This document shows, piece by piece, positions 13,254-50,314 of a stretch of 64,000 nucleotides of DNA. Source of the stretch: [Mycobacterium] nativiensis (GTDB lineage: Bacteria > Actinomycetota > Actinomycetes > Mycobacteriales > Mycobacteriaceae); the NCBI RefSeq assembly GCF_020172685.1, contig NZ_CP083986.1, forward strand, positions 4,655,773-4,719,772, written 5' to 3'. The stretch's first letter is position 1. Each line of letters starts with the position of its first letter. Position numbers and translations under genes: made by a program. The notes below the pieces were generated by a model that saw only the letters and a program-made list of their open reading frames with translations, made no database searches and had not been told where the DNA came from.

Positions 13254-13300
13254 GGCGGTTCCAGCTTCGCCTCTCCTTCGTCCAGCCTCGCTGAACCGCC
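13254..13300 (-). repeat. 47-bp palindromic 3'-end repeat, copy 1 (after canB)
   Basis: On the minus (canB sense) strand this starts GGCGGTTCAGCGAGG and ends AGCTGGAACCGCC. The ends are inverted repeats with a one-base offset. It begins directly after the canB stop codon. No 10-bp flanking duplication is visible. It belongs to the family of five copies at 13254, 20819, 24159, 45540 and 50252. Confidence 0.9.
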
Positions 13301-13918
13301 CTAATCGCCGATGTTGCCGAGATGCCCGCGGGCCTGCACCCGCCCGTCGCCCAGGTGGTAGGTGGCGCCGACGATCGCCAGCGTCCCGGCCTCGATCTGG
13401 TCGGCAATGATTGTGGAGCGCGCGGCAAGTTGCGTCACGGTCTCGTTGACGTGGCGGATCTCGAACTCGTCGACACCGCTGAGCCCTTCCCGGCGGCCCA
13501 CCAGGATCGACGAGGTGACCCGTTCGACGATGTCGCGCAGGTATCCGCCCGGTACCTCACCTTTGTCCAGGGCCGCCAGCGCGGCCTTCACCGCCCCGCA
13601 GCTGTCGTGACCGAGCACGACGATCAGCGGCACGTCGAGCACCGCCACCCCGAACTCGATCGAACCCAAGACCGCGGCGTCGATGACATGCCCGGCGGTA
13701 CGGACCACGAACATGTCGCCCAGGCCCTGATCGAAGATGATCTCGGCCGCCACCCGGCTGTCGCCGCAACCGAACACCACCGCCGTCGGCTTCTGCCCCA
13801 CCGCCAGGCTGGCCCGGCGTTCGATGCTCTGACTGGGATGCGCGGGCTGTCCGGCTACGAAGCGGTCGTTACCCTCCTTGAGTGCTTTCCAAGCTGCTAT
13901 CGGGTTTGAATTGGGCAT
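13301..13918 (-). CDS. canB: Beta-class carbonic anhydrase
   Basis: 205 residues from the ATG at 13918. VFGCGDSRVAAEIIFDQ holds the zinc Cys and the Asp/Arg dyad, and VVLGHDSCGAVKAAL holds the zinc His and second Cys. It interconverts CO2 and bicarbonate. It is divergent from mutY, with only 37 bp between the start codons. The stop codon is followed immediately by repeat copy 1. Equivalent to Rv3588c. Confidence 0.94.
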   Translation of the reverse strand: MPNSNPIAAWKALKEGNDRFVAGQPAHPSQSIERRASLAVGQKPTAVVFGCGDSRVAAEIIFDQGLGDMFVVRTAGHVIDAAVLGSIEFGVAVLDVPLIVVLGHDSCGAVKAALAALDKGEVPGGYLRDIVERVTSSILVGRREGLSGVDEFEIRHVNETVTQLAARSTIIADQIEAGTLAIVGATYHLGDGRVQARGHLGNIGD

Positions 13919-13955
13919 GCTCGATATTGTGCACGGGCGCGGGTTCTGGCGCACG

Positions 13956-14861
13956 ATGAGCATCGATCCGCACGACCTGATCAGCTGGTTCGCCTCCGCC
14001 GAACGCGACCTGCCCTGGCGGGCGCCCGACGTCACGCCGTGGCAGATCCTGGTCAGCGAATTCATGCTGCAGCAGACCCCGGTATCGCGGGTGCTGCCGA
14101 TCTGGCCGGACTGGGTGACTCGCTGGCCGACACCATCGGCGACGGCGGCCGCCACCGCGGCCGATGTGTTGCGGGCCTGGGGAAAGCTCGGCTACCCGCG
14201 CCGGGCCAAACGGTTGCACGAATGCGCCGCCGTCATCAGCCGTGACTTCGCCGACGTGGTCCCCGACGACGTCGACGTCCTACAGCAACTGCCCGGGATC
14301 GGCAGCTACACCGCGCGGGCAGTGGCCGCCTTCGCTTACCGCAAGCCAGTTCCGGTGGTGGACACCAACGTTCGCCGAGTGGTAGCCCGGGCCGTGCACG
14401 GGCGCGCCGAGGCCGCAGCACCCTCGACGAAGCGCGATCACGCCGACGTCGGCGCCCTCCTGGCCCTACTACCCAAATCCGATCGGGCCGCGCGGTTCTC
14501 GGCGGCGCTGATGGAGCTGGGCGCCCTGGTCTGCACCGCCAGAGCACCGAGCTGCGCCGTGTGTCCGTTGCGCTCGTGTGCGTGGCGAGAGAGCGGCTTC
14601 CCACCCGGCGACGCCCCGAAGCGCCCCGCCCAACGCTATGCCGGCACCGACCGTCAAGCGCGTGGACGCCTGCTGGATGTATTGCGGAACAACGAATTTC
14701 CAGTTTCACGAGCCGAACTGGACGTGGCATGGCCGGTTGACACCGTGCAGCGTGACCGGGCCCTGGCCTCACTGTTGGCCGACGGCCTGGTGGAACAGAT
14801 CACGGACGGCCGGTTCGCGCTGCCCGGTCAGGACAGGAACGACTCGACGGCGTCGCGATAG
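13956..14861 (+). CDS. mutY: A/G-specific adenine glycosylase MutY
   Basis: 301 residues from ATG 13956; in-frame starts further upstream overlap canB and are less likely. The helix-hairpin-helix LPGIGSYTARAVAAFAY is followed by PVVDTNVRRVVAR with the catalytic Asp. Four Cys (VCTARAPSCAVCPLRSC) form the 4Fe-4S cluster. It removes adenine opposite 8-oxoguanine. The protein is short at the C-terminus and lacks a long NUDIX-like domain, as I recall for M. tuberculosis MutY. The 3' end overlaps the convergent hydrolase gene by 34 bp. Confidence 0.94.
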   Translation: MSIDPHDLISWFASAERDLPWRAPDVTPWQILVSEFMLQQTPVSRVLPIWPDWVTRWPTPSATAAATAADVLRAWGKLGYPRRAKRLHECAAVISRDFADVVPDDVDVLQQLPGIGSYTARAVAAFAYRKPVPVVDTNVRRVVARAVHGRAEAAAPSTKRDHADVGALLALLPKSDRAARFSAALMELGALVCTARAPSCAVCPLRSCAWRESGFPPGDAPKRPAQRYAGTDRQARGRLLDVLRNNEFPVSRAELDVAWPVDTVQRDRALASLLADGLVEQITDGRFALPGQDRNDSTASR

Positions 14862-15598
14862 ACCTGCGGCGCGTCGTCGTGCACCAGATGACCGGCCTGC
14901 GGAACGTGCAGGTAGGTGCTGTCGGGCCCGATGCGGTGCATTTCGCGCATCTGCCCCGTCGGCGTCACGGAGTTGCCGGCCTCGATCAGCAGCGCCGGCG
15001 CACGCACCGCGCGCCACTGATTCCAGTAGTCGCGGGTGCCCCATTCGGCGGCGATCTGCACCCAGCGTCCCGGCTGACCGTGCAGTCGCCAGCCGGTCGC
15101 GGTCCGGTCGAAGGCTTCCAGGAAGTACCGCCCGGCCACGTCCCCGAATTCGGCGATCACGTCCTCGGCACGGGTGAATTCGACGGGCAGCGCGTGCGCC
15201 CACGGCTCCCACGCGCCGGTGGTGAGGCCGCGAAAGTCTGGTGCCATGTCCTCCACCACCACCGCCGTGACGAGCTCGGGACGCTGCCCCGCCAGGCACC
15301 ACGAGTGCAGTCCCCCCATCGAGTGCCCCACCAGCCGCACCGGCTCACGCAGCGACTCCACCGCGGCGGCCAGGTCGGACACGAAGCGTTCGGTGGAGAT
15401 CGGATACGGGTCTTCGACGTCGCGACCGCGGTGCCAGGGCGCGTCGTAGGTGTAAACCGCCCCCAGCCGGGTCAGCCACGGCAGCTGTCGCGGCCAGGTG
15501 CTGCCGCGGCCCATCAGCCCGTGAACCAGGACCAGCGGGGCACCCTGTCCGCCGCGATAGGTCAGCAGCTCGCTCGACGCGGTGTTCACCCGGGGCAC
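14828..15598 (-). CDS. Alpha/beta-hydrolase (Rv3591c-like)
   Basis: 256 residues. LVLVHGLMGRGSTW is the oxyanion-hole strand, LVGHSMGGLHSW holds the nucleophile Ser in GxSxG, and VPQAGHLVHDDAP holds the catalytic His. It is an esterase or related hydrolase of unknown substrate. Its start is 14 bp from that of mhuD on the other strand, so the promoters must overlap neighbouring coding sequence. Confidence 0.88.
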   Translation of the reverse strand: MPRVNTASSELLTYRGGQGAPLVLVHGLMGRGSTWPRQLPWLTRLGAVYTYDAPWHRGRDVEDPYPISTERFVSDLAAAVESLREPVRLVGHSMGGLHSWCLAGQRPELVTAVVVEDMAPDFRGLTTGAWEPWAHALPVEFTRAEDVIAEFGDVAGRYFLEAFDRTATGWRLHGQPGRWVQIAAEWGTRDYWNQWRAVRAPALLIEAGNSVTPTGQMREMHRIGPDSTYLHVPQAGHLVHDDAPQVYRDAVESFLS

Positions 15599-15612
15599 GG
15601 TAGCCTAGGCCC

Positions 15613-15930
15613 ATGTCAGTGGTGAAGATCAATGCAATCGAGGTGCCCGCCGACGCCGGGCCCGAACTGGAGAAACGGTTCGCAAATCGCGCGCACGCGG
15701 TGGAGAACCAGCCCGGTTTTCTTGGCTTCCAGCTGCTGCGCCCGGTCAAGGGCGACGACCGCTACTTCGTGGTGACGCACTGGGAGTCCGACGAAGCGTT
15801 CCAGGCGTGGGCACAGGGACCCGCCGCCGAAGCCCACGCCGGGCAGCGAGCCAACCCGGTGGCGACCGGGGCATCGTTGCTCGAATTCGAGGTCGTGTTG
15901 GACGTGGCCGGAACCGCCACCCGGGCGTAG
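15613..15930 (+). CDS. mhuD: Heme-degrading monooxygenase MhuD
   Basis: 105 residues, the same length I recall for the M. tuberculosis enzyme. It is an ABM/IsdG-fold protein with the heme-pocket residues Asn7 (VVKIN), Trp66 (AFQAW) and the proximal His75 (AAEAH). MhuD opens heme to mycobilin and releases iron without CO. An 8-bp palindrome GCCTAGGC sits just before the ATG in the 14-bp divergent gap. LpqF follows after 3 bp, so the two are probably co-transcribed. Confidence 0.96.
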   Translation: MSVVKINAIEVPADAGPELEKRFANRAHAVENQPGFLGFQLLRPVKGDDRYFVVTHWESDEAFQAWAQGPAAEAHAGQRANPVATGASLLEFEVVLDVAGTATRA

Positions 15931-15933
15931 CCC

Positions 15934-17274
15934 GTGCGGCGTTCCATCGCGGCCTGGAAGACCGCTGTAACCCTTACCGCCCTTGCAGCGCTGGCCGCCG
16001 GCTGCGCCCCCTCCCCCGCGTCGCCTGCGGACCCGGGCGCCGGCGAGGTGACGATCTCCACCAAGACGCCGCCCGGCCTGCGTGCCAAGCAGACCATGGA
16101 CATGCTGAACTCCGACTGGCCGATCGGGCCGATCGGGGTGGCCACCCTGGCCGCGCCGGACAAGGTCGAGCAGGTGGTCACGACCATGGAATCGCTGTGG
16201 TGGGACCGCCCGTTCCACCTCGACAGCGTCGACATCCGGGCCGGTGCGGCCACGCTGCACCTCACCACGTCCTACGGCGCCCGTCAGGACATCCGGCTGC
16301 GCACCGATGACAACGGCATGGTGGACCTGTTCAAACCGACCACCGAGGCGCCACCGATCCACTCGTGGCACGACGTCGACGCGGTGCTGAGCCGGACCGG
16401 CGCCCGCTACTCCTACCAGGCCTCGCGCATCGAGGGCGGCGAGTGCAAACGGGTGGCCGGCACCAACACCGGTCAATCTCTGCCGCTGGCGTCGATCTTC
16501 AAGCTGTACGTGCTGTTGGCGGTGGCCAACGAGGTCAAGGCCGGGGCGGTGTCCTGGGACGACCAGCTGACCATCACCGGCCGGGCCAAGGTGGTCGGCT
16601 CGTCCGGCCTGGAGGAACTGCCCGACGGTGCGCACGTGTCGGTGCGCAGGGCGGCCGAGAAGATGATCGCCACCAGCGACAACATGGCAACCGATCTGCT
16701 GATCGACCACGTGGGCACCCGCGCCGTCGAGCGGGCGCTGGTCGCCGCCGGACATCACGACCCGGCCAGCATGACGCCGTTTCCGACCATGTACGAGTTG
16801 TTCTCGGTGGGCTGGGGCAAACCCGACCTGCGTGAGCAGTGGCAGCACGGTTCACCACAGGAGCGGGCAAAGCTGTTGCAGCAGGCCAACTCCCGGCCGT
16901 ATGAACCGGATCCGATCCGCGCGCATGTCCCGGCCTCGGCGTACGGCGCGGAGTGGTACGGCAGCGCCGAGGACATCTGCCGGGTGCACGTCGCCCTGCA
17001 GGCCGGGGCGGTGGGCAAGGCCGCGCCGGTCAAGGAGATCATGTCCGCGGTCCGCGGCATCGACCTGCCCCGCGCCGACTGGCCCTATATCGGGGCGAAG
17101 GCCGGCGGCCTGCCCGGGGACCTGACCTTCAGCTGGTACGCCCTGGACCGGGGCGGGCAGCCCTGGGTGGTCAGTTTCCAGCTGAACTGGCCGCGTGATC
17201 ACGGCAAGAGCGTCGGCAGCTGGATGCTGCAGGTCGCCAAGCAGGCGTTCGGCCTGCTGCCGGTCCGGAGCTAG
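15934..17274 (+). CDS. lpqF: Lipoprotein with beta-lactamase/serine-hydrolase fold, LpqF
   Basis: 446 residues from a GTG start. The signal peptide ends in lipobox AAGC, followed by a Pro/Ala-rich stretch. The N-terminal part resembles a Cpe/LpqF N-domain. The C-terminal class A beta-lactamase-like domain has SIFK (Ser-x-x-Lys, near residue 187) and SDN near residue 248. A KTG-like GAKAGG occurs near the C-terminus. It is probably a surface-anchored serine hydrolase; beta-lactam hydrolysis is not shown by the motifs alone. Position equals Rv3593. Confidence 0.88.
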   Translation: MRRSIAAWKTAVTLTALAALAAGCAPSPASPADPGAGEVTISTKTPPGLRAKQTMDMLNSDWPIGPIGVATLAAPDKVEQVVTTMESLWWDRPFHLDSVDIRAGAATLHLTTSYGARQDIRLRTDDNGMVDLFKPTTEAPPIHSWHDVDAVLSRTGARYSYQASRIEGGECKRVAGTNTGQSLPLASIFKLYVLLAVANEVKAGAVSWDDQLTITGRAKVVGSSGLEELPDGAHVSVRRAAEKMIATSDNMATDLLIDHVGTRAVERALVAAGHHDPASMTPFPTMYELFSVGWGKPDLREQWQHGSPQERAKLLQQANSRPYEPDPIRAHVPASAYGAEWYGSAEDICRVHVALQAGAVGKAAPVKEIMSAVRGIDLPRADWPYIGAKAGGLPGDLTFSWYALDRGGQPWVVSFQLNWPRDHGKSVGSWMLQVAKQAFGLLPVRS

Positions 17275-17312
17275 CCCGAACCGCTCGGATAGTGCAACCA
17301 GGAAGGTTCCTC

Positions 17313-17966
17313 ATGCCACAACTGGTCCGTGTGCAGAACTTCAGCATTTCCAGTGACGGATACGGCGCCGGGGAAGGGCAAAGCCTCGAGCGTCCGTTCG
17401 GTCACGCCGATCCGGCGGACTTCATGTCCTGGGCGGGCGCCACCGCGCACTGGGTGAACCGGACCGATCCCGGCGGCAGCTACGGACTGGACGACTACAT
17501 CACCCGCGACTGGGCCAACAACATCGGCGCAGAGATCATGGGGCGTAACAAATTCGGCCCGCAGCGAGGGCCGTGGGAAAACTACGACTGGCAGGGATGG
17601 TGGGGCGACGAACCCCCGTTCCGCACACCGGTGTTCGTCCTCACCCACCATGTGCGACCATCATTCACGCTGGGACACACCACATTCCATTTCCTCGACA
17701 CGTCCGCCGAGGACGCGCTGGAGCGGGCATTGCCTGCGGCGGACGGCAAAGACGTGCGGATCGGCGGCGGTGTCGCCACGGTTCGCCAGTTCCTCGACGC
17801 CGACCTCATCGACACGATGCATGTCGCGGTGGCACCGGTCGAACTCGGCCGCGGGGAAAGGTTGTGGGCGAGCCCCGACGAACTTGTGGACCGCTTCCAC
17901 CTTGAGCAGATCCCCAGCCCGAGCGGCGTGGTGCATCACTTCTTCTGGCGAAAAGGGCTCAGCTAA
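17313..17966 (+). CDS. RibD C-terminal/dihydrofolate reductase-like protein
   Basis: 217 residues from ATG 17313, preceded by AGGAAGG. It has the fold pattern of the RibD-C reductase family: VRVQNFSISSDGYGAG at the N-terminus, IGAEIMGRNKFGPQ (MGR nucleotide motif), TPVFVLTHHVRPSF, VRIGGGVATVRQFLDADLID and VAPVELGRGERL. It probably binds NADPH; the substrate is unknown. It ends shortly before a long bidirectional terminator shared with clpC1. Confidence 0.85.
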   Translation: MPQLVRVQNFSISSDGYGAGEGQSLERPFGHADPADFMSWAGATAHWVNRTDPGGSYGLDDYITRDWANNIGAEIMGRNKFGPQRGPWENYDWQGWWGDEPPFRTPVFVLTHHVRPSFTLGHTTFHFLDTSAEDALERALPAADGKDVRIGGGVATVRQFLDADLIDTMHVAVAPVELGRGERLWASPDELVDRFHLEQIPSPSGVVHHFFWRKGLS

Positions 17967-17983
17967 CGGGTCAGCAGCGGAAC

Positions 17984-18039
17984 GAGCAGTCACGAAAGCC
18001 CCCAATTCCTTACGGAAAAGGGGGCTTTTGTGACTGCTC
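17984..18039. terminator. Bidirectional intrinsic terminator between reductase gene and clpC1
   Basis: Arms of 20 bases (GAGCAGTCACGAAAGCCCCC and its partner) pair with a single mismatch around a 16-base loop. The right inner arm contains GGGGGCTTTTG and the left inner arm GAAAGCCCCC, so both directions have a G/C stem with a short T stretch. It separates the convergent reductase gene and clpC1. Confidence 0.85.
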
Positions 18040-18042
18040 GGT

Positions 18043-20571
<2,529 letters not shown>

Positions 20572-20788
20572 CGGTGGCTACCTGCTCTCCCTCACCATCG
20601 GTACCTGCTGGGCCTCGGCTCGGCCTGGCGTACCTGCCGTCCACTCTAATGGGCGGCGCAGCGCGCTGTGACCTGCCTTGCAGTGCGAACTGAATCGACC
20701 CGCGCCGGCGGCAGGCCCGAAAGGCCTGGCACCGGATACAAGAGACCAACGACCGAACCCCGGATTACGATTCCGCAGGCTCGCCGGG

Positions 20789-20803
20789 TTCGCCAGAAGC
20801 GAA
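20789..20803. promoter_or_regulatory. ClgR-like palindrome upstream of clpC1
   Basis: TTCGCCAGAAGCGAA is a perfect inverted repeat of five-base arms. It fits the core of the actinobacterial ClgR motif CGC-N5-GCG, with one deviation from the central base of the published consensus as I remember it. ClgR activates clp genes including clpC1 in M. tuberculosis. The distance of about 218 bp from the start codon requires a long leader or an upstream promoter. Confidence 0.45.
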
Positions 20804-20818
20804 AAGCCGGACTCATAC

Positions 20819-20865
20819 GGCGGTCCCAGCTTCGGCTCTCCTTCGTCGAGCCTCGCTGAACCGCC
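20819..20865 (-). repeat. 47-bp palindromic 3'-end repeat, copy 2 (after lsr2)
   Basis: Read on the minus strand, the element starts GGCGGTTCAGCGAGGCTCGA and ends AGCTGGGACCGCC. The outer arms and an inner GGCTC/GAGCC stem both pair. It lies 3 bp after the lsr2 stop, in sense orientation. No exact 10-bp duplication flanks it. Confidence 0.9.
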
Positions 20866-20868
20866 GGC

Positions 20869-21204
20869 TCAGGTGGCGGCGTGGAATGCGTCGATGATGT
20901 CGGCCGGGATACGGCCACGAGTGGACACGTTGTGCCCGTTGCGGCGGGCCCATTCACGGATCGCAGCGCTCTGCTCACGGTCGATCGTGCCGCGACGGCC
21001 ACCACCGGTCCGCCCCCGCCGACGCCCCCCGACGCGACGACCGGCGTCGGCCCACTTCTTCAAGTCCGCGCGCAGTTTTCCGGCATTCTTGCTAGAAAGG
21101 TCAATCTCGTAGGTTACCCCGTCCAGTCCGAATTCAACTGTTTCGTCGGCGGCACCCTCACCATCGAAATCATCGATCAAGGTGACGGTCACTTTTTTCG
21201 CCAT
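20869..21204 (-). CDS. lsr2: Nucleoid-associated protein Lsr2
   Basis: 111 residues. The N-terminal dimerisation domain ([20 protein letters not shown]) is followed by a basic linker ([18 protein letters not shown]). The C-terminal DNA-binding domain ends with [17 protein letters not shown], where RGR is the AT-hook-like motif. Lsr2 bridges AT-rich DNA and silences acquired genes, like H-NS. The 116-bp upstream region is relatively AT-rich. The 3' end is followed by repeat copy 2. Confidence 0.97.
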
Positions 21205-23719: not shown

Positions 23720-23721
23720 GG

Positions 23722-24138: not shown

Positions 24139-25127
24139 CAATTCCTCCGGGTTGATACGTCGGTTCCAGCTTCGTCTCTCCTCCGTCGAGCCTCGCTGAA
24201 CCGCCGGGTTGATACGTGATTGCCGTCCGAACCGGCGAACGCCTCGTCGGCGGGAGATCCGAGTGTGATGGCCGCGTTGTCGAGCAGTCGGGTCGCTCCG
24301 ACGCGGGCGGCGATCAGCAGGCGGCCCGGCCCATCGGTGGGCGCCGGCTCAAGGCCGGGGCCCCGCACCTGCAGGTAGTCGACCTCGACCTCGGGCGAGG
24401 CGGCCAGCACCGCCGCGGCGGCGTCGAGCGCCGCGGCCGGCCCGCCCGGCGCGGCGTACTCGCCGGCGGCCAGTGCCGCCGACAGCACCGTCGCGGCCTC
24501 GCGCTGCGCGGAGTCGAGGTAGCGGTTGCGCGACGACATCGCCAGGCCGTCGTGTTCGCGCACCGTCGGCACGCCCACCACGGTCACGTCGAGGTTGAGG
24601 TCGTCGACCATCTGACGCACCAGCACCAGCTGCTGGTAGTCCTTCTCCCCGAAGAACACCCGGTCGGGCTGCACGATCGAGAGCAGCTTGCACACCACGG
24701 TGAGCATCCCGGCGAAATGTGTTGGGCGCGCGGCACCTTCGAGCTCGGCGCCCAGCGGTCCCGGGTGCACCGCGGTGCGCGGGCCGCACGGGTACATGGC
24801 CGCGGCGGTCGGGGTGAAGGCCAACTCGACGCCTTCGGCGCGCAGCAGGGCCAGGTCATCGTCGAGGGTGCGCGGGTAGGCGTCGAGGTCCTCGCCGGCG
24901 CCGAACTGCAGCGGGTTGACGAAGATCGACACCACCACCACCGAGCCGGGCACCCGCTGCGCGGCCCGGACCAGGGACAGGTGGCCGTCGTGCAGGGCAC
25001 CCATGGTGGGCACCAGCATCACCCGGCGACCGGTCGCGCGCAGCGCCCGGGTGACCCGGGCGATCTCGTCGGGCCGTGCGTAGACGTTGAGCCCACCGCG
25101 GTCGAAGGTGGGCGCGTTCGGCCTCAC
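24138..25127 (-). CDS. panC: Pantothenate synthetase with repeat-encoded C-terminal tail
   Basis: 329 residues from GTG 25127, which overlaps the upstream stop as [24 protein letters not shown] holds the HIGH-like ATP motif. [17 protein letters not shown] and [17 protein letters not shown] form the pantoate pocket, and SSRNRYL is the KMSKS-like loop. It joins pantoate and beta-alanine. The last residues run through repeat copy 3. Without the 57-bp insertion the protein would be 310 residues, close to the roughly 309 I recall for M. tuberculosis, and would end VSTRRN. The insertion keeps the frame and the overlap with panD. Confidence 0.96.
24159..24205 (-). repeat. 47-bp palindromic 3'-end repeat, copy 3 (inside panC, with 10-bp target duplication)
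   Basis: On the panC sense strand it starts GGCGGTTCAGCGAGGCTCGA and ends AGCTGGAACCGAC. A perfect 10-bp direct repeat, GGGTTGATAC, flanks it at 24149-24158 and 24206-24215. Element plus one repeat is 57 bp. It is translated in frame as [17 protein letters not shown] in the PanC C-terminus. Confidence 0.93.
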
Positions 25128-41531: not shown

Positions 41532-42554
41532 TCAGACCACCTCGCGGCGCAGCCGCAGCACGCCATCCCCGCGCACGGCGAACAGCCGCTCGCCCCGCAG
41601 GTCCGACCCGATGGCCACCCCACCCTGCCCGCGCCACGCGGTTACCAGCCGATCCACCGCCCGGATCTGCAGGTCGGTCAACCCCCGGCCTCCCCCGGCC
41701 AGCAGCCAGCACCGGATCACCGCCCGCCGCACCGGCCCGGGCAGCGCCGCCAAACCGGCGGCGTCCAAACCAGCGGCGTCCAAACCAGCGGCGTCCAAAC
41801 CGGTGGCGTCCTGACCGGTGGCGTCCTGACCGGGGTCGACGGTGACGGCGGGCAGCGCCTGGGCGGCGAGCACGTCGATCAGCTCGGTGTTCTCCCGCAG
41901 CGCCGTCGCGGTGCGGGCCAGGGCCTGCGCCACCCCGCCGCCCAGCACGTCCTCGAGCAGCGGCAGCACCTCCGCGCGCAACCGCGATCGGGTGAACCGC
42001 GGATCGGCGTTGTGCGGGTCGAGCCACGGCGTCAGCCTCAGCTCGACGCAGGCGCTGCGGGTGAGCTCGCGCCGCACATCCAGCAGCGGCCGACACCACG
42101 GCGGGTCGTGTGGGCGCATCCCGGCAATCGAGCGGGGACCCGAGCCGCGGCCCAGCCCCAGCAGCACCGTCTCGGCCTGATCGTCCAGGGTGTGACCGAG
42201 CAGTACCGGACGCCCGCCGCGGGCGTCGGCAAGGGCGGCGTAGCGCGCGGTGCGGGCCGCCGCCTCCGGGCCACCCTCGGCCTCGACGGTCACCGGGATG
42301 ATCACCGCGTCAACGCATCCCAGTTCCAGTGCCTGTCGCCGAGCGGTCTCAGCCACCTGCGCCGAGCCGGCCTGCAGACCGTGGTCGACGATCAGCGCCG
42401 TGGTAGGCCGAATCTCCGCGGCGACCGCGGTCAGGGCCAGCGAATCCGGCCCACCCGACAGCGCCACCGTCCAGGGCGAGGCCTCAGGCAGGTACTGCTC
42501 GGCGAACGCCAGCAGCGCGGCACGCAGCGCGGCTACAGCACGCGGTCGATCCAC
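41532..42554 (-). CDS. tilS: tRNA(Ile)-lysidine synthetase
   Basis: 340 residues from GTG 42554 ([17 protein letters not shown]), overlapping the upstream gene by 22 bp. [20 protein letters not shown] is the PP-loop, and [20 protein letters not shown] and [20 protein letters not shown] are TilS core. It converts C34 of tRNA-Ile(CAU) to lysidine. Near residues 240-267 a tandem pentapeptide ([10 protein letters not shown]) is encoded by a 15-bp repeat, a likely disordered and length-variable linker. The protein is slightly longer than the M. tuberculosis one (about 323). Confidence 0.94.
41751..41833 (-). repeat. 15-bp tandem repeat inside tilS
   Basis: About five and a half units of a 15-bp motif (GCGTCCAAACCAGCG on the plus strand; variants have CAAACCGG or CTGACCGG). 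They encode repeated DAAGL/DATGQ pentapeptides. The unit is a multiple of three, so copy-number change would keep the frame. Confidence 0.85.
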
Positions 42555-43582
42555 CGCTGCGGTTCTTCGATCTCGGCGGGCAGCGGCAGTGTCTCGGGAC
42601 CCGCCCACACCGCGTTGAACCGGGTCATGCCGACCCGGTCGACGACGGCATCGACGAAAGCCTTACCGCGGGTGTACTGGCTGAGCTTGGCGTCCAGGCC
42701 CAGCAGTGCGCGCAGCAGTCGTTGCAGCGGCGGCTGGCTGCGCTGACGGCGCTCCTCGAAACGGCTCCGGATGGTGACCACCGACGGCACCGCTGACGGC
42801 CCGACCGCGTCCATCACGTGATCGGCGTGGCCCTCCAGCAGCGTGCCCAGCGTGAGCAGCTGGTCCAGCGCGGTGCGCTGCGCATCCGACTGCACCGCGC
42901 GCACCAGGCCCAGAATGCCCGACGGGCCCGGCTCGGCGGCTGCGTCGTCACGGCGACTGCGCAGGTGGTCGGCCAGCCGGCCCACCACCTGGGTGACATC
43001 CGGGCCGCTGTCGCTGGTCAACACCGCCAGCGCGTCCGACATGTAGCCGGCCAGCCACGGGTTGACGCTGAACTGCACCCGATGGGTGACCTCGTGCAGG
43101 CACACCCACAGCCGGAAGTCGGCCGGGGTCACCCGCAGCTGTCGTTCCACGGCGACCACGTTGGGGAAGACCAGCAGCAGCTGTCCCGCCCTCCCCGCGG
43201 GATCAACACAGAACGGGTCGTACTGGCCGAGGATGCCCGAGGAGACGAACGCCAGCAGCGCCCCGGTCTGCGCCCCGGCCAGGTGCCCGCTGAGGAAGCC
43301 GGTGGGCCGGTCAGTGCCGCCCGTCATGACTCGCATCGACTCGGCGGCCGCGGCGATCCACTGCGACCGGTCGACGACCTTGGCCTCGGGCACCGGGCCG
43401 TCGGCGCCCAGCCCGGTCACCTCCCGCACCAGCGGTTCGGCGGCCCGGGCACACCGGTACAGATCATCGACGACCTGGCCGCGGGTGTAGTCGGTCATCG
43501 GCGGCGCGGGGCGCGCCAGCCAGCCCCCGACCGTCGCGGCGAACCCCCAGTCCACCGCGCGCCCGACGTCGAGATCGCTCAT
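42533..43582 (-). CDS. Zinc-dependent metallopeptidase (Rv3626c-like, DUF2342)
   Basis: 349 residues from ATG 43582, which overlaps the dacB stop as ATGA; GTG two codons earlier is possible. RLWVCLHEVTHRVQFSV contains HExxH near residue 160, and LLEGHADHVMDAVG provides a downstream Glu/His pair. MSDLDVGRAVDWGFAATVGG is the family N-terminus. It belongs to the actinobacterial family annotated as F420-associated or zinc-dependent metalloproteases. Substrate is unknown. Confidence 0.82.
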   Translation of the reverse strand: MSDLDVGRAVDWGFAATVGGWLARPAPPMTDYTRGQVVDDLYRCARAAEPLVREVTGLGADGPVPEAKVVDRSQWIAAAAESMRVMTGGTDRPTGFLSGHLAGAQTGALLAFVSSGILGQYDPFCVDPAGRAGQLLLVFPNVVAVERQLRVTPADFRLWVCLHEVTHRVQFSVNPWLAGYMSDALAVLTSDSGPDVTQVVGRLADHLRSRRDDAAAEPGPSGILGLVRAVQSDAQRTALDQLLTLGTLLEGHADHVMDAVGPSAVPSVVTIRSRFEERRQRSQPPLQRLLRALLGLDAKLSQYTRGKAFVDAVVDRVGMTRFNAVWAGPETLPLPAEIEEPQRWIDRVL

Positions 43583-44955
43583 GTGCACCCGCAGGTCCTC
43601 AGGACCGCGGCCAGCGAGTCGATCGCCGTCCGCCCGGTCGGCCCGGCCTCGTTGGAGATGAACGCGAATGTCAGCACCCGGCGGTCCCGGTCGGTGACGA
43701 CGCCGGCAAGTGCGTTGGTGCGGGTCAGCGAACCGGTTTTGGCCCGCAGCCAGCCGGCCGCACCGCGTCCGGTCTTCGGGTTGAGGAAGCGGTCGGACAA
43801 CGTCCCGCTGCCGCCGGCCACCGGCAGCATGTCCAGCAGCGGCCGCAGCTGCGGCTGGTCGGGCCCGGCCGCAGCCTGCACCACCGCGTCGAGCGCCCTG
43901 GCCGACAGTCGGTCGTCGACGGACAGGCCGCTCGAATCCATCAGGGTGGCCCCGCTCAGCGAGATGTGTGCGGTGGCCAGCCGGTTGGTCACCGCGTCGA
44001 CCGCACCGGCGAAGGAACGCGGCCGGCCCATCGCCGCGGCCACCTCCCGTGCGATGCTCTCAGCCATCACGTTGTCGGAGGCGTTCATCATCTCCCCCAG
44101 TCGCACCACCAGCGGGGCCGAGGCGACCGTGCCCAATTCGCGTCCGGTCACCGACGCGGTCGCGATGCTCACCTTGTCGGTGTCTACGCCCAGTGCGGCG
44201 GCCAGCGCCCGGCCGGCGTCCAGGGCGGGCGTCGGCGACCGGCGGGATTCCACCGTGGTCGGCTGGATTCGGCCGCCGTCGACCATCACCGACTCGATCG
44301 GGGCGATGTCACCGCCTTCGATGTCTTCCGGGTCCCAGCCCGGAGCCAGGCTCGGGCCGCTGAACGCCGACACATCAACCTGAACCTCGGTGGCCGTCAC
44401 CCCGCTGCGGCGGACCTGGTCGGCCAAGTCATCAATCCTGGCGGCGTCGCGGTACCAGGTGTCCTGCCCGACCCCGGCGGTCGACAGCGTCGGGTCACCT
44501 CCGCCGATCAGCACCACCACCCCGGGCTGATCGCCGGAGATCACTCGGGTGCTGACCCGTGCGCCCAGGTCCAGCGCCAGCAGCGCGGCGGCCGCGGTCA
44601 GCACCTTGTTGGTCGATGCCGGCTGCATCGGCAGGTCTTCCTGCTGCGTCCACAGCGCCTTACCAGTCAGCGCGTCGGTGATCCGGCCGGTCAGCCGGCC
44701 CAGGTTCGGGTCGGCCAGGGCACCCGCCATCGCGGCCGCCAGCGCACTGCCGGTCGGTACCGGGGTGTCGTCGGCAACCGGGACAACCCCGGGCTTGGCG
44801 GTCGCCACCGGCGCTGCCGGCACCGCGTGCGCACCGGCATCGGACTCGTCCGGGAGCACAACCGCGGCCACCACCACGACGGCGGCGGCCAGGGCCAGGA
44901 CCCCGGCCGCGATGCCCAGATGAGCGCTGCTGTGTCGCCACCGATTGGGGTGCAT
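43579..44955 (-). CDS. dacB: D-alanyl-D-alanine carboxypeptidase/endopeptidase (PBP4 type)
   Basis: 458 residues from ATG 44955. An N-terminal membrane/signal segment (GIAAGVLALAAAVVVVAAVV) is followed by the serine PBP motifs: SxxK in PASTNKVLTA near residue 112, SxN in MMNASDNVMAES near residue 291, and KTG in RAKTGSLTRTNA near residue 405. It trims peptidoglycan stem peptides outside the membrane. Equivalent to Rv3627c and divergent from ppa. Confidence 0.92.
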   Translation of the reverse strand: MHPNRWRHSSAHLGIAAGVLALAAAVVVVAAVVLPDESDAGAHAVPAAPVATAKPGVVPVADDTPVPTGSALAAAMAGALADPNLGRLTGRITDALTGKALWTQQEDLPMQPASTNKVLTAAAALLALDLGARVSTRVISGDQPGVVVLIGGGDPTLSTAGVGQDTWYRDAARIDDLADQVRRSGVTATEVQVDVSAFSGPSLAPGWDPEDIEGGDIAPIESVMVDGGRIQPTTVESRRSPTPALDAGRALAAALGVDTDKVSIATASVTGRELGTVASAPLVVRLGEMMNASDNVMAESIAREVAAAMGRPRSFAGAVDAVTNRLATAHISLSGATLMDSSGLSVDDRLSARALDAVVQAAAGPDQPQLRPLLDMLPVAGGSGTLSDRFLNPKTGRGAAGWLRAKTGSLTRTNALAGVVTDRDRRVLTFAFISNEAGPTGRTAIDSLAAVLRTCGCT

Positions 44956-45034
44956 GTCTCTCCTGCCTGTCGGGGCCAATTGTGCCGGACGGGCGGGGTC
45001 CGGGCGTGAATCCGGCCCGCTCTAGACTGTCCCG

Positions 45035-45523
45035 GTGCAATTCGACGTGACCATCGAGATCCCCAAGGGCCAGCGCAACAAGTACGAGATCGACCACGCC
45101 ACCGGCAGGGTCAAGCTCGACCGGTACCTGTACACGCCGATGGGCTACCCCGCCGACTATGGCTTCATCGAGGACACGCTCGGCGAGGACGGCGACCCGC
45201 TGGACGCGATGGTGCTGCTGCCCCAGTCGGTGTTTCCCGGCGTGATCGTCGAGGCTCGCCCGGTCGGCATGTTCCGGATGACCGATGAGGCCGGCGGCGA
45301 CGACAAGGTGCTGTGCGTGCCGGCCGGTGACCACCGGTGGGACCACATCCAGGACATCGGTGACGTGCCGGAGCATGAGCTGGACGCGATCAAGCACTTC
45401 TTCGTGCACTACAAGGACCTGGAGCCGGGCAAGTTCGTCAAGGCCGCCGACTGGGTGGGCCGCGCCGACGCCGAGGCCGAGATCGACCGGTCGATCGAGC
45501 GGTTCAAGACCTCCGGTCACTGA
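45035..45523 (+). CDS. ppa: Inorganic pyrophosphatase
   Basis: 162 residues from GTG, the usual family I length. [40 protein letters not shown] (metal-binding Asp) and [17 protein letters not shown] are signatures. It hydrolyses pyrophosphate and drives biosynthesis. Its 3' end overlaps the convergent TetR gene by 7 bp, next to repeat copy 4. Confidence 0.97.
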
Positions 45524-46275
45524 CTCGCAGGGCTTGTGCGGCGGTTCCAGCTTCGCCTCTCCTCCGTCGAGCCTCGCTGAACCGCCGGCTGCGGCCGCGC
45601 GAACATCTCCAGCAGCAGTGCGAGCTGGACGCCGAGCGCCGCTCGCGGATCGGTCAGGGTGTCCTGGCCGAACCCGCCGAACACCTCGAGGCTGACCGCA
45701 CCGACCAGCGCGGACCACATCAGGAAGCATTTCGCGACGACGGCGTCGTCACCGGCGAACCCAAATTCCTCGCGAACGCGATCGAAATCCGACGACAACG
45801 GTTGCACGGCAACACTGTTGGTCACTGCGATGTCCCCGGATTCGATTCCGGCCGCAACCGCTTCGAAGAAGGCCCCCACGACGCGGGTGCCCGGGATGAC
45901 GGTCTGGTCGACGGGCGCGTGATAGCCCGGCACCGGACTGCCGTACAGCAGGGCCCACCCGGCCGGATGCGCTGACGCCCAGTCCCGCACCGCGTGGGCG
46001 ATCGTCACCACGTCCTCGCGCCACGACGCCGACGACGCCGATGCGCGGGCTCGGTCCACCGCGTCGGCCAGATCCGAATAGGCGTCGACCAGCAGAAGGG
46101 TGAGCAGCTCATCGCGGCTGGCCACATACCGGTAGACCGCGGATGACACCATGCCCACATCGCGGGCGACGGCGCGCAACGACAGCCCGGCAGCGCCGTG
46201 CGTGAGCAGGTGACGGCGGCCGACCTCGAGGATCTGCGCCTCGATGCGTTCCCTCGACTCCTGCCGTTTGCCCAT
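45517..46275 (-). CDS. TetR-family regulator with repeat-encoded C-terminal tail
   Basis: 252 residues from ATG 46275. The helix-turn-helix lies near residues 10-55 ([40 protein letters not shown]). The C-terminal domain is a TetR_C_33-like ligand domain ([20 protein letters not shown]). The last part reads through repeat copy 4 as [16 protein letters not shown] and ends TSPASQ. It is divergent from the deazaflavin oxidoreductase gene across two similar operator-like sites, so it probably represses it and itself. Confidence 0.87.
45540..45586 (-). repeat. 47-bp palindromic 3'-end repeat, copy 4 (inside TetR gene 3' end)
   Basis: On the TetR sense strand it starts GGCGGTTCAGCGAGGCTCGA and ends AGCTGGAACCGCC. 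It is translated in the third possible frame. No exact flanking duplication is visible. Confidence 0.92.
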
Positions 46276-46297
46276 GGCACCAGTCTGACAGATTTGT

Positions 46298-46310
46298 GAG
46301 CACTGCTCTT
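46298..46310. promoter_or_regulatory. Operator-like site 1 in TetR/reductase divergent region
   Basis: GAGCACTGCTCTT contains the palindrome GAGCA-C-TGCTC. It differs by one base from site 2, 48 bp away. It lies 23 bp upstream of the TetR start. Confidence 0.6.
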
Positions 46311-46345
46311 GTTTATCCGGCCGCGCCGTGTCACCATTCAAACGA

Positions 46346-46358
46346 GAGCACCGCTCTT
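46346..46358. promoter_or_regulatory. Operator-like site 2 in TetR/reductase divergent region
   Basis: GAGCACCGCTCTT contains AGAGC-ACC-GCTCT when the base before is included. It lies 21 bp upstream of the reductase ATG, just before its AAGGAGG. Binding here would block reductase transcription or initiation. Confidence 0.6.
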
Positions 46359-46378
46359 TCCCGAAGGAGGCGACGACC

Positions 46379-46813
46379 ATGGCGCACTACGAGCCGCCGA
46401 GCACGGCGGAAAGGTTGGGCAACGCGCTGATCCGCAGGCTGGCCGAGGTTGGGATCAGCATCGCCGGCACCCGCGCGCTCACCGTGCGGGGCCGCAAGTC
46501 CGGCAAGAACCGCAGCGTCGTGGTCAATCTGTTGACCGTCGACGGTGCCGACTACCTGGTGGCGCCGCGCGGCAACACCGAGTGGGTCCGCAACGTCCGG
46601 GCCGCCGGACAGGTCCAGCTGGGACCGCGCTGGCATCGGAGACCGGCCCGGGCCGTCGAAGTACCCGACGACGACAAACCGGAGTTGCTTCGCCGCTACC
46701 TGCAGAAGTGGCACTGGCAGGTCAAGGGTTATGTGGGGGGACTGACACCGGATTCCAGCGATGCCGAACTGCGCGACGCCGCACCGTCGTTCCCGGTCTT
46801 CTCACTGCGCTGA
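46379..46813 (+). CDS. Nitroreductase/deazaflavin-dependent (F420) oxidoreductase, Ddn family
   Basis: 144 residues from ATG 46379 after AAGGAGG. It is a split beta-barrel of the DDN family: LTVRGRKSGKNRSVVVNLLT, VDGADYLVAPRGNTEWVRNV and VQLGPRWHRRPARAVEV. Such proteins use F420H2 to reduce quinones or nitro compounds, or bind related cofactors. It is divergent from the TetR gene that likely controls it and convergent with terC. Confidence 0.85.
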   Translation: MAHYEPPSTAERLGNALIRRLAEVGISIAGTRALTVRGRKSGKNRSVVVNLLTVDGADYLVAPRGNTEWVRNVRAAGQVQLGPRWHRRPARAVEVPDDDKPELLRRYLQKWHWQVKGYVGGLTPDSSDAELRDAAPSFPVFSLR

Positions 46814-47794
46814 CGGCACCCCGCGGGTCCGGTACAGGCTGGCCGCGGTCGTCAGCGCCAGCACCCCCACCACGACCGTCAGGCTGATCGGGGTGGGGAT
46901 CTCCGGGACATTGAAGTTGCGTCCGGAGTTGATGAACCACACGTCGTTGGTGTGCAGGGCGTGTAGCACCATCCGCACCCCGATGAATCCCAAGATCACG
47001 GCCAGCCCCTGCGACAGGTACACGAACCGGTTCAGCAGCTTGCCCAGGATGAAGTACAGCTGGCGCAGGCCCATCAGGGCGAACACCGTCGAGGCGAAGA
47101 CCAGGTAGGGCTGGCGAGTCAGCCCGTAGATGGCCGGGATGGAATCCATCGCGAACACCAGGTCGGTGGTGCCCAGCGCCAGGGCCACCAGGAACATCGG
47201 GGTGATGGCCCGCACGCCCGAGGAATCCCGAACGAAGAACCGCACACCCGCCCAGCGATCGGTGGCGTTGAAGTGGGTACGGGCGAAGCGCACCACGGCG
47301 TTGTTGCCCCCGGAGCCCCCGCCGCCGGTGTCCTCCACGCCGCCGTGGCGCAGCAGCTTCACGGCGGTGTAGGCCATGAACGCGCCGAACAGGTAGAACG
47401 TCCACGAGAGTCGTTGCACGGCAACGCCGCCAAGCACGATGAACACCGTGCGGAACAACAGCGCCATCACGATGCCGACGAACAGCGCCTCCTGGCGATA
47501 GCGCCGGGGCACGTTGAAGCTGTTCATGATGATCACGAAGACGAACAGGTTGTCCACCGACAGGCTGTACTCGGTGAGCCAGCCGGCGAAGAACTGCATG
47601 CCGTAGCGCGCGCCGTGATGCATCCAGACCCAGACGCCGAACGCCACGGCCAGGCTGAGGTAGAACGTCAGCCAGGTCGCGATCTCCCGGATCGTCGGCT
47701 CGTGCACCCGGCGACCGATCATGAACAGGTCGAACCCGAGGATCGCGGTCAGTCCGCCGATCGTCACCAGCCATTCCAACAGCGAGGGGTCCAA
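46802..47794 (-). CDS. TerC-family integral membrane protein
   Basis: 330 residues, start taken as TTG 47794 because GGAGG lies 7 bases upstream; no ATG is available nearby. It has about nine membrane segments with the TerC acidic motifs (WLTEYSLSVDNLFVFVIIMN and LGTTDLVFAMDSIPAIYGLT), which likely bind metal. TerC proteins help load metal, especially manganese, onto or across membrane proteins. Tellurite resistance is the historical label only. It corresponds to Rv3629c in position. The 3' end overlaps the reductase gene by 12 bp. Confidence 0.87.
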   Translation of the reverse strand: MDPSLLEWLVTIGGLTAILGFDLFMIGRRVHEPTIREIATWLTFYLSLAVAFGVWVWMHHGARYGMQFFAGWLTEYSLSVDNLFVFVIIMNSFNVPRRYRQEALFVGIVMALLFRTVFIVLGGVAVQRLSWTFYLFGAFMAYTAVKLLRHGGVEDTGGGGSGGNNAVVRFARTHFNATDRWAGVRFFVRDSSGVRAITPMFLVALALGTTDLVFAMDSIPAIYGLTRQPYLVFASTVFALMGLRQLYFILGKLLNRFVYLSQGLAVILGFIGVRMVLHALHTNDVWFINSGRNFNVPEIPTPISLTVVVGVLALTTAASLYRTRGVPSAQ

Positions 47795-47884
47795 CGGCGG
47801 CCTCCGGTCGTCGAGCCATCGCGAATGGGAGCTTGTTGCGCGGGCCGACCGACCGTACCCCGCGGCCCGCTTAGTATTTTCGCC

Positions 47885-49153
47885 GTGGTGACCGATATCG
47901 GTGGCACCGGATCCCCAAGTGGGTTCCCCACCGGCCCTGTTACCCGGTCCAGTGTGGCCCGGGTCGGCACCGCAACCCTGCTCAGCGCTCTCTGCGGCTA
48001 CGCGGTCCTGTATCTGGCGGCCCGCGACCTGGAGCCGGCCGGCTTCTCGGTGTTCAGCGTGTTCTGGGGCGCATTCGGGCTGGTCGCCGGCGCCGCCAAC
48101 GGCCTGTTGCAGGAAACCACCCGGGAGGTCCGATTCGCCCAGGAGATCGGTCCGGGCCCCACGACAGGTCCGCACACCCGGCCGCTGTGGGTGGCCGGGC
48201 TGGCCGGAGTGGTGGCCGCCGCTCTGGTCGCCGTCAGTTCACCGCTGTGGAGCGGTCACGTGTTCGTCGACGCGCGCTGGCTGTCGGTGGGACTGCTGTG
48301 CTTCGGGCTGGCCAACTTCGCCGTGCACGCCACCATGCTGGGCATGCTGGCCGGTACCAACCGGTGGACCCAGTACGGGGCGCTGATGGTCACCGACGCG
48401 GGTATCCGGGTGGCCGTGGCCACCGCCACGTTCGTGATCGGCTGGGGCTTGGTCGGCTTCTTGTGGGCCACCGTCGCCGGAGCCGTGGCCTGGCTGCTGC
48501 TGCTGGCCGCTTCGCCCGCGACCCGATCGGCGGCCCGGCTGCTGACCCCGGTGGAGACCTCGGCGTTCCTGCGTGGCGCGGCGCATTCGATCACCGCGGC
48601 CGGGGCCAGCGCGATCCTGGTGATGGGCTTTCCGGTGCTGTTGCAGGCCACCTACGGCGAACTGGGCGCCGAGGGCGGGGTGGTGGTTCTGGCGGTCACC
48701 GTGACCCGGGCTCCGCTGCTGGTCCCGCTGACCGCCATGCAGGGCAACCTGATCGCACACTTCGTCGATCAGCGTGAGCGGCGGGTGCGGTCCCTGATCA
48801 CGCCGGCGGCGTCCGTCGCCCTGCTGGGGGCAGTGGGCGCGGTGGCGGCGGGCCTGCTCGGTCCCTGGCTGCTGCGCACCGTGTTCGGGCCGGACTACCA
48901 CACCGGTGGGCTGCTGCTGGCCGGACTGACCACCGCGGCAACGGCGATTGCGCTGCTGACGCTCACCGGCGCGGCGACGGTTGCCGCGGCGCTGCACCGC
49001 GCCTACGCGCTGGGCTGGGTGGGCGCCACCGTGGCATCGACGCTGCTGTTGCTGCTGCCGATGGACCTGTCGACCAGAACCGTTGTCGCCCTGCTGTGCG
49101 GCCCACTGGTGGGAATCGCCGTGCACCTGACCGCGTTACGTGCGGCTTCCTGA
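47885..49153 (+). CDS. Flippase-like polytopic membrane protein (Rv3630-like)
   Basis: 422 residues from GTG 47885 (GTG 47888 also possible). It has twelve or so membrane segments with the pattern of MATE/Wzx-type exporters (SVARVGTATLLSALCGYAVL, FSVFWGAFGLVAGAANGLLQ, LVPLTAMQGNLIAHFVDQRE). It may flip a lipid-linked sugar. The glycosyltransferase follows 8 bp later, which supports a common pathway, but the substrate is not shown by the sequence. Confidence 0.82.
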   Translation: MVTDIGGTGSPSGFPTGPVTRSSVARVGTATLLSALCGYAVLYLAARDLEPAGFSVFSVFWGAFGLVAGAANGLLQETTREVRFAQEIGPGPTTGPHTRPLWVAGLAGVVAAALVAVSSPLWSGHVFVDARWLSVGLLCFGLANFAVHATMLGMLAGTNRWTQYGALMVTDAGIRVAVATATFVIGWGLVGFLWATVAGAVAWLLLLAASPATRSAARLLTPVETSAFLRGAAHSITAAGASAILVMGFPVLLQATYGELGAEGGVVVLAVTVTRAPLLVPLTAMQGNLIAHFVDQRERRVRSLITPAASVALLGAVGAVAAGLLGPWLLRTVFGPDYHTGGLLLAGLTTAATAIALLTLTGAATVAAALHRAYALGWVGATVASTLLLLLPMDLSTRTVVALLCGPLVGIAVHLTALRAAS

Positions 49154-49161
49154 GCCAGGAC

Positions 49162-49887
49162 GTGTATTTTTTAGGGATCGATACCAGGTCAAAGATCCCT
49201 TACCCGGACGTCTGGATCATCGTCCCGGCCTTCGGCGAGGCAGCCGTCATCGGCGACGTGATCGCCGGCATCCGGTCGACTTTCGACAACGTCGTCTGCG
49301 TGGACGACGGGAGCGCCGACGACACCGCCGCCATCGCGCGACACGCCGGCGCCTTTGTGGTGCGCCATCCGGTCAATCTCGGCCAGGGAGCGGCGATCCA
49401 GACCGGGGTCGAGTTCGCCCGTAGCCGGCCGGGGGCCCGGCTGTTCGCCACCTTCGACGCCGACGGTCAGCACCGGGTGGCCGACGTGGCGCGCATGCTC
49501 GAGCACCTCGACGCCGAAGATCTCGACATCGTCGTCGGCACGCGGTTCGCGGCGCCCGCAGCGGCCGCCGCGGTGCCGCCGCTCAAAAGGCTGGTGCTCA
49601 AGACCGCGGTGTGGCTCAACCCGCGGATCCGCCGGCTGGGTCTCTCCGACGCACACAACGGTCTGCGGGTGTTCAACCGCCGGGTCGCCGAGGGCCTGGA
49701 TCTCACCATGACCGGCATGAGCCACGCCGGCGAGTTCATCGCACTGATCGCCGAGAACCATTGGCGGGTGGGCGAAGAACCGGTTGAGGTGCTCTACACC
49801 GAGTACTCCAAGTCGAAGGGCCAGCCGCTGCTCAACGGGGTCAACATCATCTTCGACGGGATGCTGCGCAAGAGGATGTCCAGATGA
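49162..49887 (+). CDS. ppgS: Family 2 glycosyltransferase, probable polyprenyl-phospho-GalNAc synthase
   Basis: 241 residues from GTG 49162, the length I recall for Rv3631. It is a GT2 fold: VWIIVPAFGEAAVIGDVIAG, VVCVDDGSADDTAAIARHAG, RHPVNLGQGAAIQTGVEFAR and the DxD-type FATFDADGQHRV. Rv3631 (PpgS) transfers GalNAc to polyprenyl phosphate for the galactosamine on arabinogalactan and works with the small membrane protein Rv3632. The same partner follows here. The sugar specificity is inferred from this orthology. Confidence 0.83.
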   Translation: MYFLGIDTRSKIPYPDVWIIVPAFGEAAVIGDVIAGIRSTFDNVVCVDDGSADDTAAIARHAGAFVVRHPVNLGQGAAIQTGVEFARSRPGARLFATFDADGQHRVADVARMLEHLDAEDLDIVVGTRFAAPAAAAAVPPLKRLVLKTAVWLNPRIRRLGLSDAHNGLRVFNRRVAEGLDLTMTGMSHAGEFIALIAENHWRVGEEPVEVLYTEYSKSKGQPLLNGVNIIFDGMLRKRMSR

Positions 49888-49903
49888 ACAGGATTGCCTC
49901 CAC

Positions 49904-50314
49904 ATGAACTGGATAAAGGTGCTGCTGATCGCGGCGGTGGTGTCGCTGCTGATCTACCTGTTGCTGTCGCGGCGCTCCGCCCAGTCCCGTGCCTGGGTGA
50001 AGGTCGGCTATCTGCTGTTCGTGGTGGCCGGCATCTATGCGGTGCTGCGCCCGGATGACACCACCGTGGTGGCGAATTGGGTCGGGGTGCGCCGCGGCAC
50101 CGACCTGATGCTCTACATCCTGATCATCGTGTTCGCGTTCACGACGCTGAGCACCTATATGCGGTTCCGCGACCTGGAGCTGCGCTATGCCCGGCTGGCC
50201 CGAGTAGTCGCGCTGGCCAACGCTCAGCCACCGGAACCGCCGCCGAAAACCGGCGGTTCAGCGAGGCTCGACGGAGGAGAGCCGAAGCTGGAACCGCCGT
50301 CGAAAACACAGTAA
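49904..50314 (+). CDS. DUF2304 small membrane protein (Rv3632-like) with repeat-encoded tail
   Basis: 136 residues from ATG 49904. Three membrane segments (WIKVLLIAAVVSLLIYLLLS, VGYLLFVVAGIYAVL, TDLMLYILIIVFAFTTLSTY) precede a conserved RFRDLELRYARLARVVALA. The family partners GT2 enzymes, and Rv3632 is needed for PpgS activity. The C-terminus reads [16 protein letters not shown] through repeat copy 5. Removing 57 bp would give 117 residues, near the roughly 114 I recall for Rv3632. Confidence 0.88.
   Translation: MNWIKVLLIAAVVSLLIYLLLSRRSAQSRAWVKVGYLLFVVAGIYAVLRPDDTTVVANWVGVRRGTDLMLYILIIVFAFTTLSTYMRFRDLELRYARLARVVALANAQPPEPPPKTGGSARLDGGEPKLEPPSKTQ
50252..50298 (+). repeat. 47-bp palindromic 3'-end repeat, copy 5 (inside DUF2304 gene, with duplication)
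   Basis: It starts GGCGGTTCAGCGAGGCTCGA and ends AGCTGGAACCGCC, with an inner GGCTC/GAGCC stem. The flanks GCCGAAAACC (50242-50251) and GTCGAAAACA (50299-50308) match 8 of 10. The match continues leftwards, so that 50233-50250 and 50290-50307 agree in 17 of 18 bases. The offset is again 57 bp. Confidence 0.93.

Follow-up and report, generated by a model that had tools for sequence, protein, structure and literature searches.

The 64-kb stretch of the [Mycobacterium] nativiensis genome considered here (the window; contig NZ_CP083986.1, positions 4655773-4719772 of a 5,276,002-bp genome, our G000) carries five copies of a palindromic repeat, each exactly 47 bp long. The repeat represents a new family of mobile palindromes resembling the mycobacterial interspersed repetitive units (MIRUs), and it is most probably a non-autonomous, recently mobile mini-element with MIRU-like behavior, which inserts at junction-like sites and is then subject to selection. 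MIRUs are dispersed units of 40–100 bp, some of which form variable tandem arrays, and they are widely used in tuberculosis strain typing; we know of no account of how they moved. A separate family in environmental relatives, with what appear to be fresh insertions and empty sites, makes movement of this kind directly studiable. In addition, the repeat lengthens conserved proteins such as PanC by stretches of 19 codons, and could supply variable-number tandem repeat (VNTR) markers for typing Mycolicibacter.

The five window copies had been listed in a first-pass annotation of this DNA, and both their coordinates and their length were borne out by direct check. Half-consensus searches of the window (≤3 mismatches) returned 5 matches against 0.01 expected and 6 against 0.51 expected, the sixth match (3 mismatches) not being a copy. 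Across the whole genome, a scan allowing ≤3 mismatches matched 67 places and its reversed control pattern none. A covariance model of the repeat was built from 28 variants, and a genome search with it, in which 150 of 6,852 candidates were scored (E ≤ 1), gave 108 matches (E ≤ 1) in 71 loci. Head-to-tail arrays of 2–4 copies make up 27 of the 71 loci; each array keeps to a single strand, and the periods are 55–58 bp except in one array of 48/54 bp and one of 80 bp. The uniform length of 47 bp holds for all five copies in the window; genome-wide there are also forms of 45, 46, and 68/69 bp, together with a few shortened matches. Locus 1188885 is a weak match, across which two relatives (G347 and G350) align without a gap; it is probably not a copy and was left out of the gene-context counts, which therefore comprise 70 loci. 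The strand of the loci showed no clear pattern by chromosome half. Carriage by phage or plasmid gained no support: a blastn search of phage and plasmid sequences with the 47-mer (E ≤ 1e-5) found no match.

Evidence for mobility comes from the same two relatives. The query was a 6.6-kb set of 66 flanks, from which the best 40 matches were taken per relative, leaving 26 of the 66 unplaced in each; the 40 placed flanks were 91–99% identical in G347 and 80–97% identical in G350. The 40 regions of G347 comprise 13 full copies, 1 partial copy, 1 weak non-element, and 25 without a match, and both flanks align in 24 of these 25. Even at the 13 shared loci, copy number differs between G347 and this genome in 6. 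The 40 regions of G350 comprise 3 full copies, 1 weak non-element, and 36 without a match (both flanks aligned in 30). All five window sites are likewise empty in G347, and these empty sites imply recent mobility. Clean single gaps were available in 22 comparisons, and 12 of the inserts correspond to whole units: 57 bp at 411122, 931384, and 3481851 against G347 and at 1090667 and 2004491 against G350; 56 bp at 972849, 3001090, and 3862770; 114 bp at 2004491 and 4547663 against G347 and at 5044190 against G350; and 116 bp at 3240977. Plain VNTR minisatellites that arose by local slippage without dispersal would account for arrays with a period of about 57 bp and for their changes in number, but such an origin is hardly credible for near-identical copies at 71 loci with clean empty sites. 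The earlier suggestion of a miniature mobile element has gained support from the empty sites in relatives, from the copy-number differences, and from an independent insertion in opposite orientation at one site, described below.

The copies in the window and their immediate surroundings are as follows (window coordinates).

13254..13300, minus strand: 47-bp hairpin core 3′ of the canB-type carbonic anhydrase gene, whose stop adjoins the core
13244..13253, minus strand: canB linker GCATTGCCGG, 10 nt, downstream of the core
20819..20865, minus strand: 47-bp core, 3 nt 3′ of the lsr2 stop TGA
20809..20818, minus strand: lsr2 linker GTATGAGTCC, similar to the left flank TGAGCC
24159..24205, minus strand: 47-bp core within the panC frame
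24206..24215, minus strand: left copy of the panC duplication GTATCAACCC, a 10-bp direct repeat
24149..24158, minus strand: right copy of the panC duplication GTATCAACCC
45540..45586, minus strand: 47-bp core within the C-terminal end of a TetR-family frame
45530..45539, minus strand: TetR linker GCACAAGCCC
50252..50298, plus strand: 47-bp core within the C-terminal end of a DUF2304 frame
50244..50250, plus strand: left copy of the 7-bp DUF2304 duplication CGAAAAC
50301..50307, plus strand: right copy of the 7-bp DUF2304 duplication CGAAAAC

The neighboring genes are those named at first pass, namely carbonic anhydrase (canB), Lsr2, PanC, TetR, and DUF2304. The canB site is empty in G347 and in a third relative, G291; G350 has there a copy in the opposite orientation, flanked on both sides by GGAATA, which is an independent antisense insertion. 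The core is missing at lsr2 in G347, G350, and G291, at the TetR frame in G347 and G350, and at DUF2304 in G347, G350, and G291. At panC, the core and the duplication together lengthen the C-terminus by 57 bp, that is, by 19 codons, in frame. GTATCAACCC is present singly in the core-less panC of G291 and G073 and as a one-base variant in that of G347; at this panC position, G173 carries a diverged repeat.

The unit consists of a 47-bp imperfect hairpin with terminal inverted repeats, followed by a linker of about 10 nt (consensus GCATGAACCC), for a total of 57 bp. A 45-bp form (GGCGGTTAGCGAG...) has one base fewer on each side of the stem, a linker of 11 nt, and a period of 56 bp, and the stop TAG is codon 3 of this form. 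The 68/69-bp forms contain an additional inner hairpin; this subfamily was seen at G000:C1:4069194-4069342 and 943339-943406, and the array at 4069194 is also found in G347. Half-elements that end at the hairpin apex (..CTCGACG) were observed at G000:C1:1433832-1433850 (L329), in G350 (L213), and in G347 (L208), and the G000 sites orthologous to the latter two have a full copy. In a covariation test on 79 distinct rows, drawn from 105 of the 108 matches (E ≤ 1e-7), compensatory changes were found in 9 of 16 stem pairs, against 2.2 in shuffles, none of 500 shuffles reaching 9. Stem cells are paired in 92.7% of cases, a share that falls to 51.2% or less once the partner is slid, in an alignment fitted to the model and thus favoring pairing. 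The second pair of the inner stem is unpaired in 47 of the 78 distinct rows with letters at that place. The pairing of the ends that had been noticed at first pass is thus real, and the inner stem is complete in some copies only. The 47-bp core is open in five of the six reading frames; once the consensus linker is added, the resulting 57-bp unit is open in four, two per strand. Since 57 bp is 19 codons, reading frames can survive the insertion.

In flank statistics on 66 of the 71 loci (1188885, 3378190, 4069194, 1608579, and 943339 were dropped), the final two positions of the left flank are mostly CC (80 and 92%), and the right flank past the linker resembles the element start GGCGG (73, 71, 62, 53, and 47%). 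The left flank also resembles the linker of its own locus, with 246 matches over 8 nt against 209 ± 8 for shuffled linkers (z = 4.45; 0 of 5000 shuffles), and the linker consensus is not common to left flanks. Seven of 70 loci have duplications of at least 7 bp, a number that averaged 1.0 and never exceeded 4 in 300 shuffles. At three of the seven (2470013, 3163356, and 3740098) the left flank holds the tail of the preceding copy, which makes them weak evidence of duplication. Comparison of sites confirmed duplications of 10 bp at panC, 7 bp at DUF2304, and 6 bp at the canB site of G350. Overall, their length runs from 0 to about 12 bp, with 6–12 bp at some sites. A uniform 10-bp target duplication was rejected, as there is none or a single base pair at 972849, 3862770, 4547663, and 3001090. 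Target-derived duplication and a carried linker both occur, and for this reason we do not commit to a simple transposase.

These junctions bear on a possible alternative, a classic miniature inverted-repeat transposable element (MITE), whose 47-bp inverted repeats would be recognized in trans by a DDE-type transposase that leaves duplications of 6–12 bp, the linkers being mainly target duplications. The terminal inverted repeats, the three site-confirmed duplications, and the excess of duplications over shuffles would all follow. However, three of the seven duplication loci are the weak ones, the linker consensus is absent from left flanks, and several clean inserts came without duplication. 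Moreover, no longer element with the same ends was found among matches to the 19-nt 5′ end, whose neighbors were not searched for a transposase. These matches number 85 in the genome against 2 for the reversed control. Of the 4 that lie outside the model matches, two look like chance, one is a half-element, and one is a partial copy next to a 69-bp copy.

Gene context was taken from our own gene-calling script rather than from the official annotation, with calls scoring <15 dropped. In 35 of the 70 loci the repeat lies in sense orientation at a gene 3′ end: within 20 nt past the sense stop (16), with the sense stop inside the repeat (9), or in the final ≤95 nt of a sense frame extending across the repeat (10). 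The other loci are internal sense (9), N-terminal sense (1), antisense within genes (5), antisense between co-directional genes (8), between divergent genes (10), or otherwise placed (2). Of the 56 informative loci, 43 are in sense orientation (one-sided binomial test, p = 3.7e-5). Called genes contribute most of this signal (29 of 34), and a gene caller favoring frames open through the core may inflate it there; between genes alone the count is 14 of 22 (p = 0.14). Twelve of the 18 intergenic copies past a sense stop begin 0–5 nt from that stop. The first-pass annotation had placed the repeat only at gene 3′ ends and always in sense; this rule was rejected, as only half of the loci fit it and the canB copy of G350 is antisense. 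Tabulated genome-wide, distance and orientation uphold the sense bias, and gene-end placement covers half of the loci. The gene-end bias is real, though limited to that half.

The same figures bear on whether the repeat is a functional RNA element, such as a terminator, an mRNA stabilizer, or a processing site at gene 3′ ends, that was spread by selection. The sense bias and the covarying stem agree with such a role, as does the stability of the sense-strand hairpin (z = -3.0 and -4.6 for two variants, against -1.7 for an antisense strand). Such a role is nevertheless improbable, because sense 3′ ends account for only half of the loci, the G350 canB copy is antisense, and most mapped sites are not common to G347. 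In the copies and the linker consensus, which were read without a terminator scan, GCATGAACCC follows the hairpin and there is no T run, and this tells against the portable terminator proposed at first pass. Rfam returned no match up to E = 1 for window positions 13000-51000.

The repeat is widespread in one group of mycobacteria. Of 198 sampled genomes of the genus (in the GTDB sense), 24 had a match at E ≤ 0.01 under stricter filters. The panC flank scored at least 408 bits in 20 of 396 genomes, this one included, and 360 in the next; these 20 and G086, which was assigned to the same clade from its repeats and a fragment of panC, are the 21 clade genomes that were tested. The wider search that the first-pass annotation had called for, through the whole genome and other mycobacteria, thus gave 71 loci here and found all 21 clade genomes to be copy-rich: ten gave 18 to at least 150 matches (at least 150 in G069), ten gave 33–95, and this genome gave 108. 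Among 22 genomes outside the clade, the 15 that were not preselected had none, and the 7 that were preselected had 1–2 each. Named records with an exact 53-base pattern are from Mycolicibacter in 27 of 28 stretches (sinensis, senuensis, longobardus, heraklionensis, algericus, icosiumassiliensis, and sp. MYC123, MYC098, and MYC017), and one is from Mycobacterium sp. UM_WGJ. Judged by the names of these records, the repeat-rich clade would be Mycolicibacter.

Related hairpins were also seen outside the clade. G174 (4.0 Mb) contains a 56-bp relative, whose inner stem is longer, in 17 copies (L102, L113, and L332-L346), some of them in arrays with a period of 65–66 bp; in the 12 copies that were read, the outer stem varies between copies and yet mostly remains paired. 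G155, a different species, has a tandem pair of related 68-bp hairpins with a period of 78 bp (L304). In G117 (6.0 Mb), a lone near-perfect 47-bp copy (L101, G117:C1:1487283-1487329) lies near EthD-domain and short-chain dehydrogenase frames, and is perhaps a recent transfer.

For the mobile mini-element that we favor, the following mechanism is proposed. Units would enter sites that resemble their own junction (..RRNCC/GGCGG..), which often include a stop or start codon (TGA or TAG, for example). Entry would be by hairpin- or homology-assisted copying, sometimes leaving duplications of 6–12 bp, and arrays would then grow via slippage or unequal recombination. Insertions at gene ends and in frame would survive selection, because the unit is a multiple of three, four of its six frames are open, and many targets contain a stop codon. 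Such survival would produce a bias toward sense orientation and 3′ ends without any terminator function. As to how the copies are made, we infer, by a slight preference, template-switch copying rather than a transposase in trans. A stronger form, in which a palindromic minisatellite spreads without any transposase, whole 57-bp units being template-switched from arrays at short junction-like homologies, is doubtful. If true, transposase-free copying would explain the spread of MIRUs and other mycobacterial VNTRs, and each lineage would grow a hairpin family of its own (47 bp in Mycolicibacter, 56 bp in G174, and 68 bp in G155).

Several observations weigh against a mobile mini-element of this kind. 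Ten of the 22 clean comparisons are irregular, with inserts of 39–128 bp. Junctions are of two kinds, the four loci with no or 1-bp duplication standing apart from the duplicated ones, and the canB copy of G350 consists of a core that lacks the usual linker. Some of the empty sites may reflect losses; in G347, those that contain GGCGG might have lost the unit precisely instead of preserving the state before insertion. The enzyme search covered the Y1 family alone, and some gene-end copies may have a selected role.

Among known systems, repetitive extragenic palindromes (REP) and bacterial interspersed mosaic elements (BIME) are short imperfect palindromes, often found after genes and clustered. 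Mobilization by a REP-associated tyrosine transposase (RAYT) or an IS200-type Y1 transposase would accord with the small imperfect palindromes in arrays that both share, but it is very unlikely here and was rejected, since no Y1_Tnp (PF01797) was found in this genome; one of 11 repeat-rich genomes tested was positive (G180). The TnpA-REP connection raised at first pass accordingly gains nothing from this search. M. tuberculosis has VNTRs of 56–59 bp. We know of no 57-bp arrays of the Rickettsia palindromic elements (RPE). RPE are palindromes of 105–146 bp inserted in frame in protein genes (PMC2229807). In-frame insertion is shared by the repeat at panC and at the nine internal sense loci (by our own caller); on description, which is the basis of this comparison, RPE differ in size and belong to another phylum. 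The same source presents MITEs (e.g., RUP and Correia/NEMIS) as non-autonomous, with terminal inverted repeats and some target duplications (PMC2229807). The repeat has all three features; however, it is smaller, its linker often co-travels, its duplication is inconsistent, and no parent transposon was found among the matches to its 5′ end. A survey of stem-loop families lists M. tuberculosis families, one of which includes MIRU (PMC2267715). A literature text search for GGCGGTTCAGCGAGG, which excluded figures and supplements, did not find it, and the titles and abstract openings of the papers listed first on Mycolicibacter and M. terrae repeats contain no description of the repeat.

By architecture rather than by detected sequence, MIRUs appear to be the closest known system. 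Both are scattered units that end in inverted repeats, contain a purine-rich GAGGAG stretch, and often lie next to stop or start codons; both form tandem arrays with a period of about 53–57 bp that vary in copy number; and both have a linker with (A)TGA..CC that is echoed in the left flank. Read in sense orientation, a MIRU has the form GCGCCG...CGGCGC, with GAGGAGGAG and a linker, for example TGATGACCC. Supply is said to have described in 1997 a DTGA start/stop target of MIRU that is duplicated at the element ends. In 8 of 11 MIRU loci read (some of them arrays, and without a shuffle control), a string of 4–10 bp with TGA stands on both sides. The repeat has ATGA in its linker consensus and TGA to the left of many copies, whereas its duplications CGAAAAC, GTATCAACCC, and GGAATA lack TGA. 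MIRUs thus differ from the repeat in that TGA is not obligatory in the repeat's duplications, the repeat's hairpin is more stable, and no common sequence was detected. For this comparison, the MIRU core was searched for (≤3 mismatches) with a pattern that we take to represent it, which occurs once in this genome and 0–3 times per clade genome (21 genomes). Six MIRU-rich genomes (G060, G337, G364, G105, G356, and G387) have 13–70 core matches each, and the repeat model R1 gave 0 matches in them at E ≤ 1e-4. In one paper, MIRUs of 77 and 53 bp are placed between senX3 and regX3, where they can drive regX3 transcription, and MIRU is said to be confined to M. leprae and the tuberculosis complex (PMC4213456), a restriction perhaps meant for the senX3-regX3 region alone. 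Despite that restriction, the core pattern was found in 176 of 396 genomes of the genus, several with 53-bp arrays.

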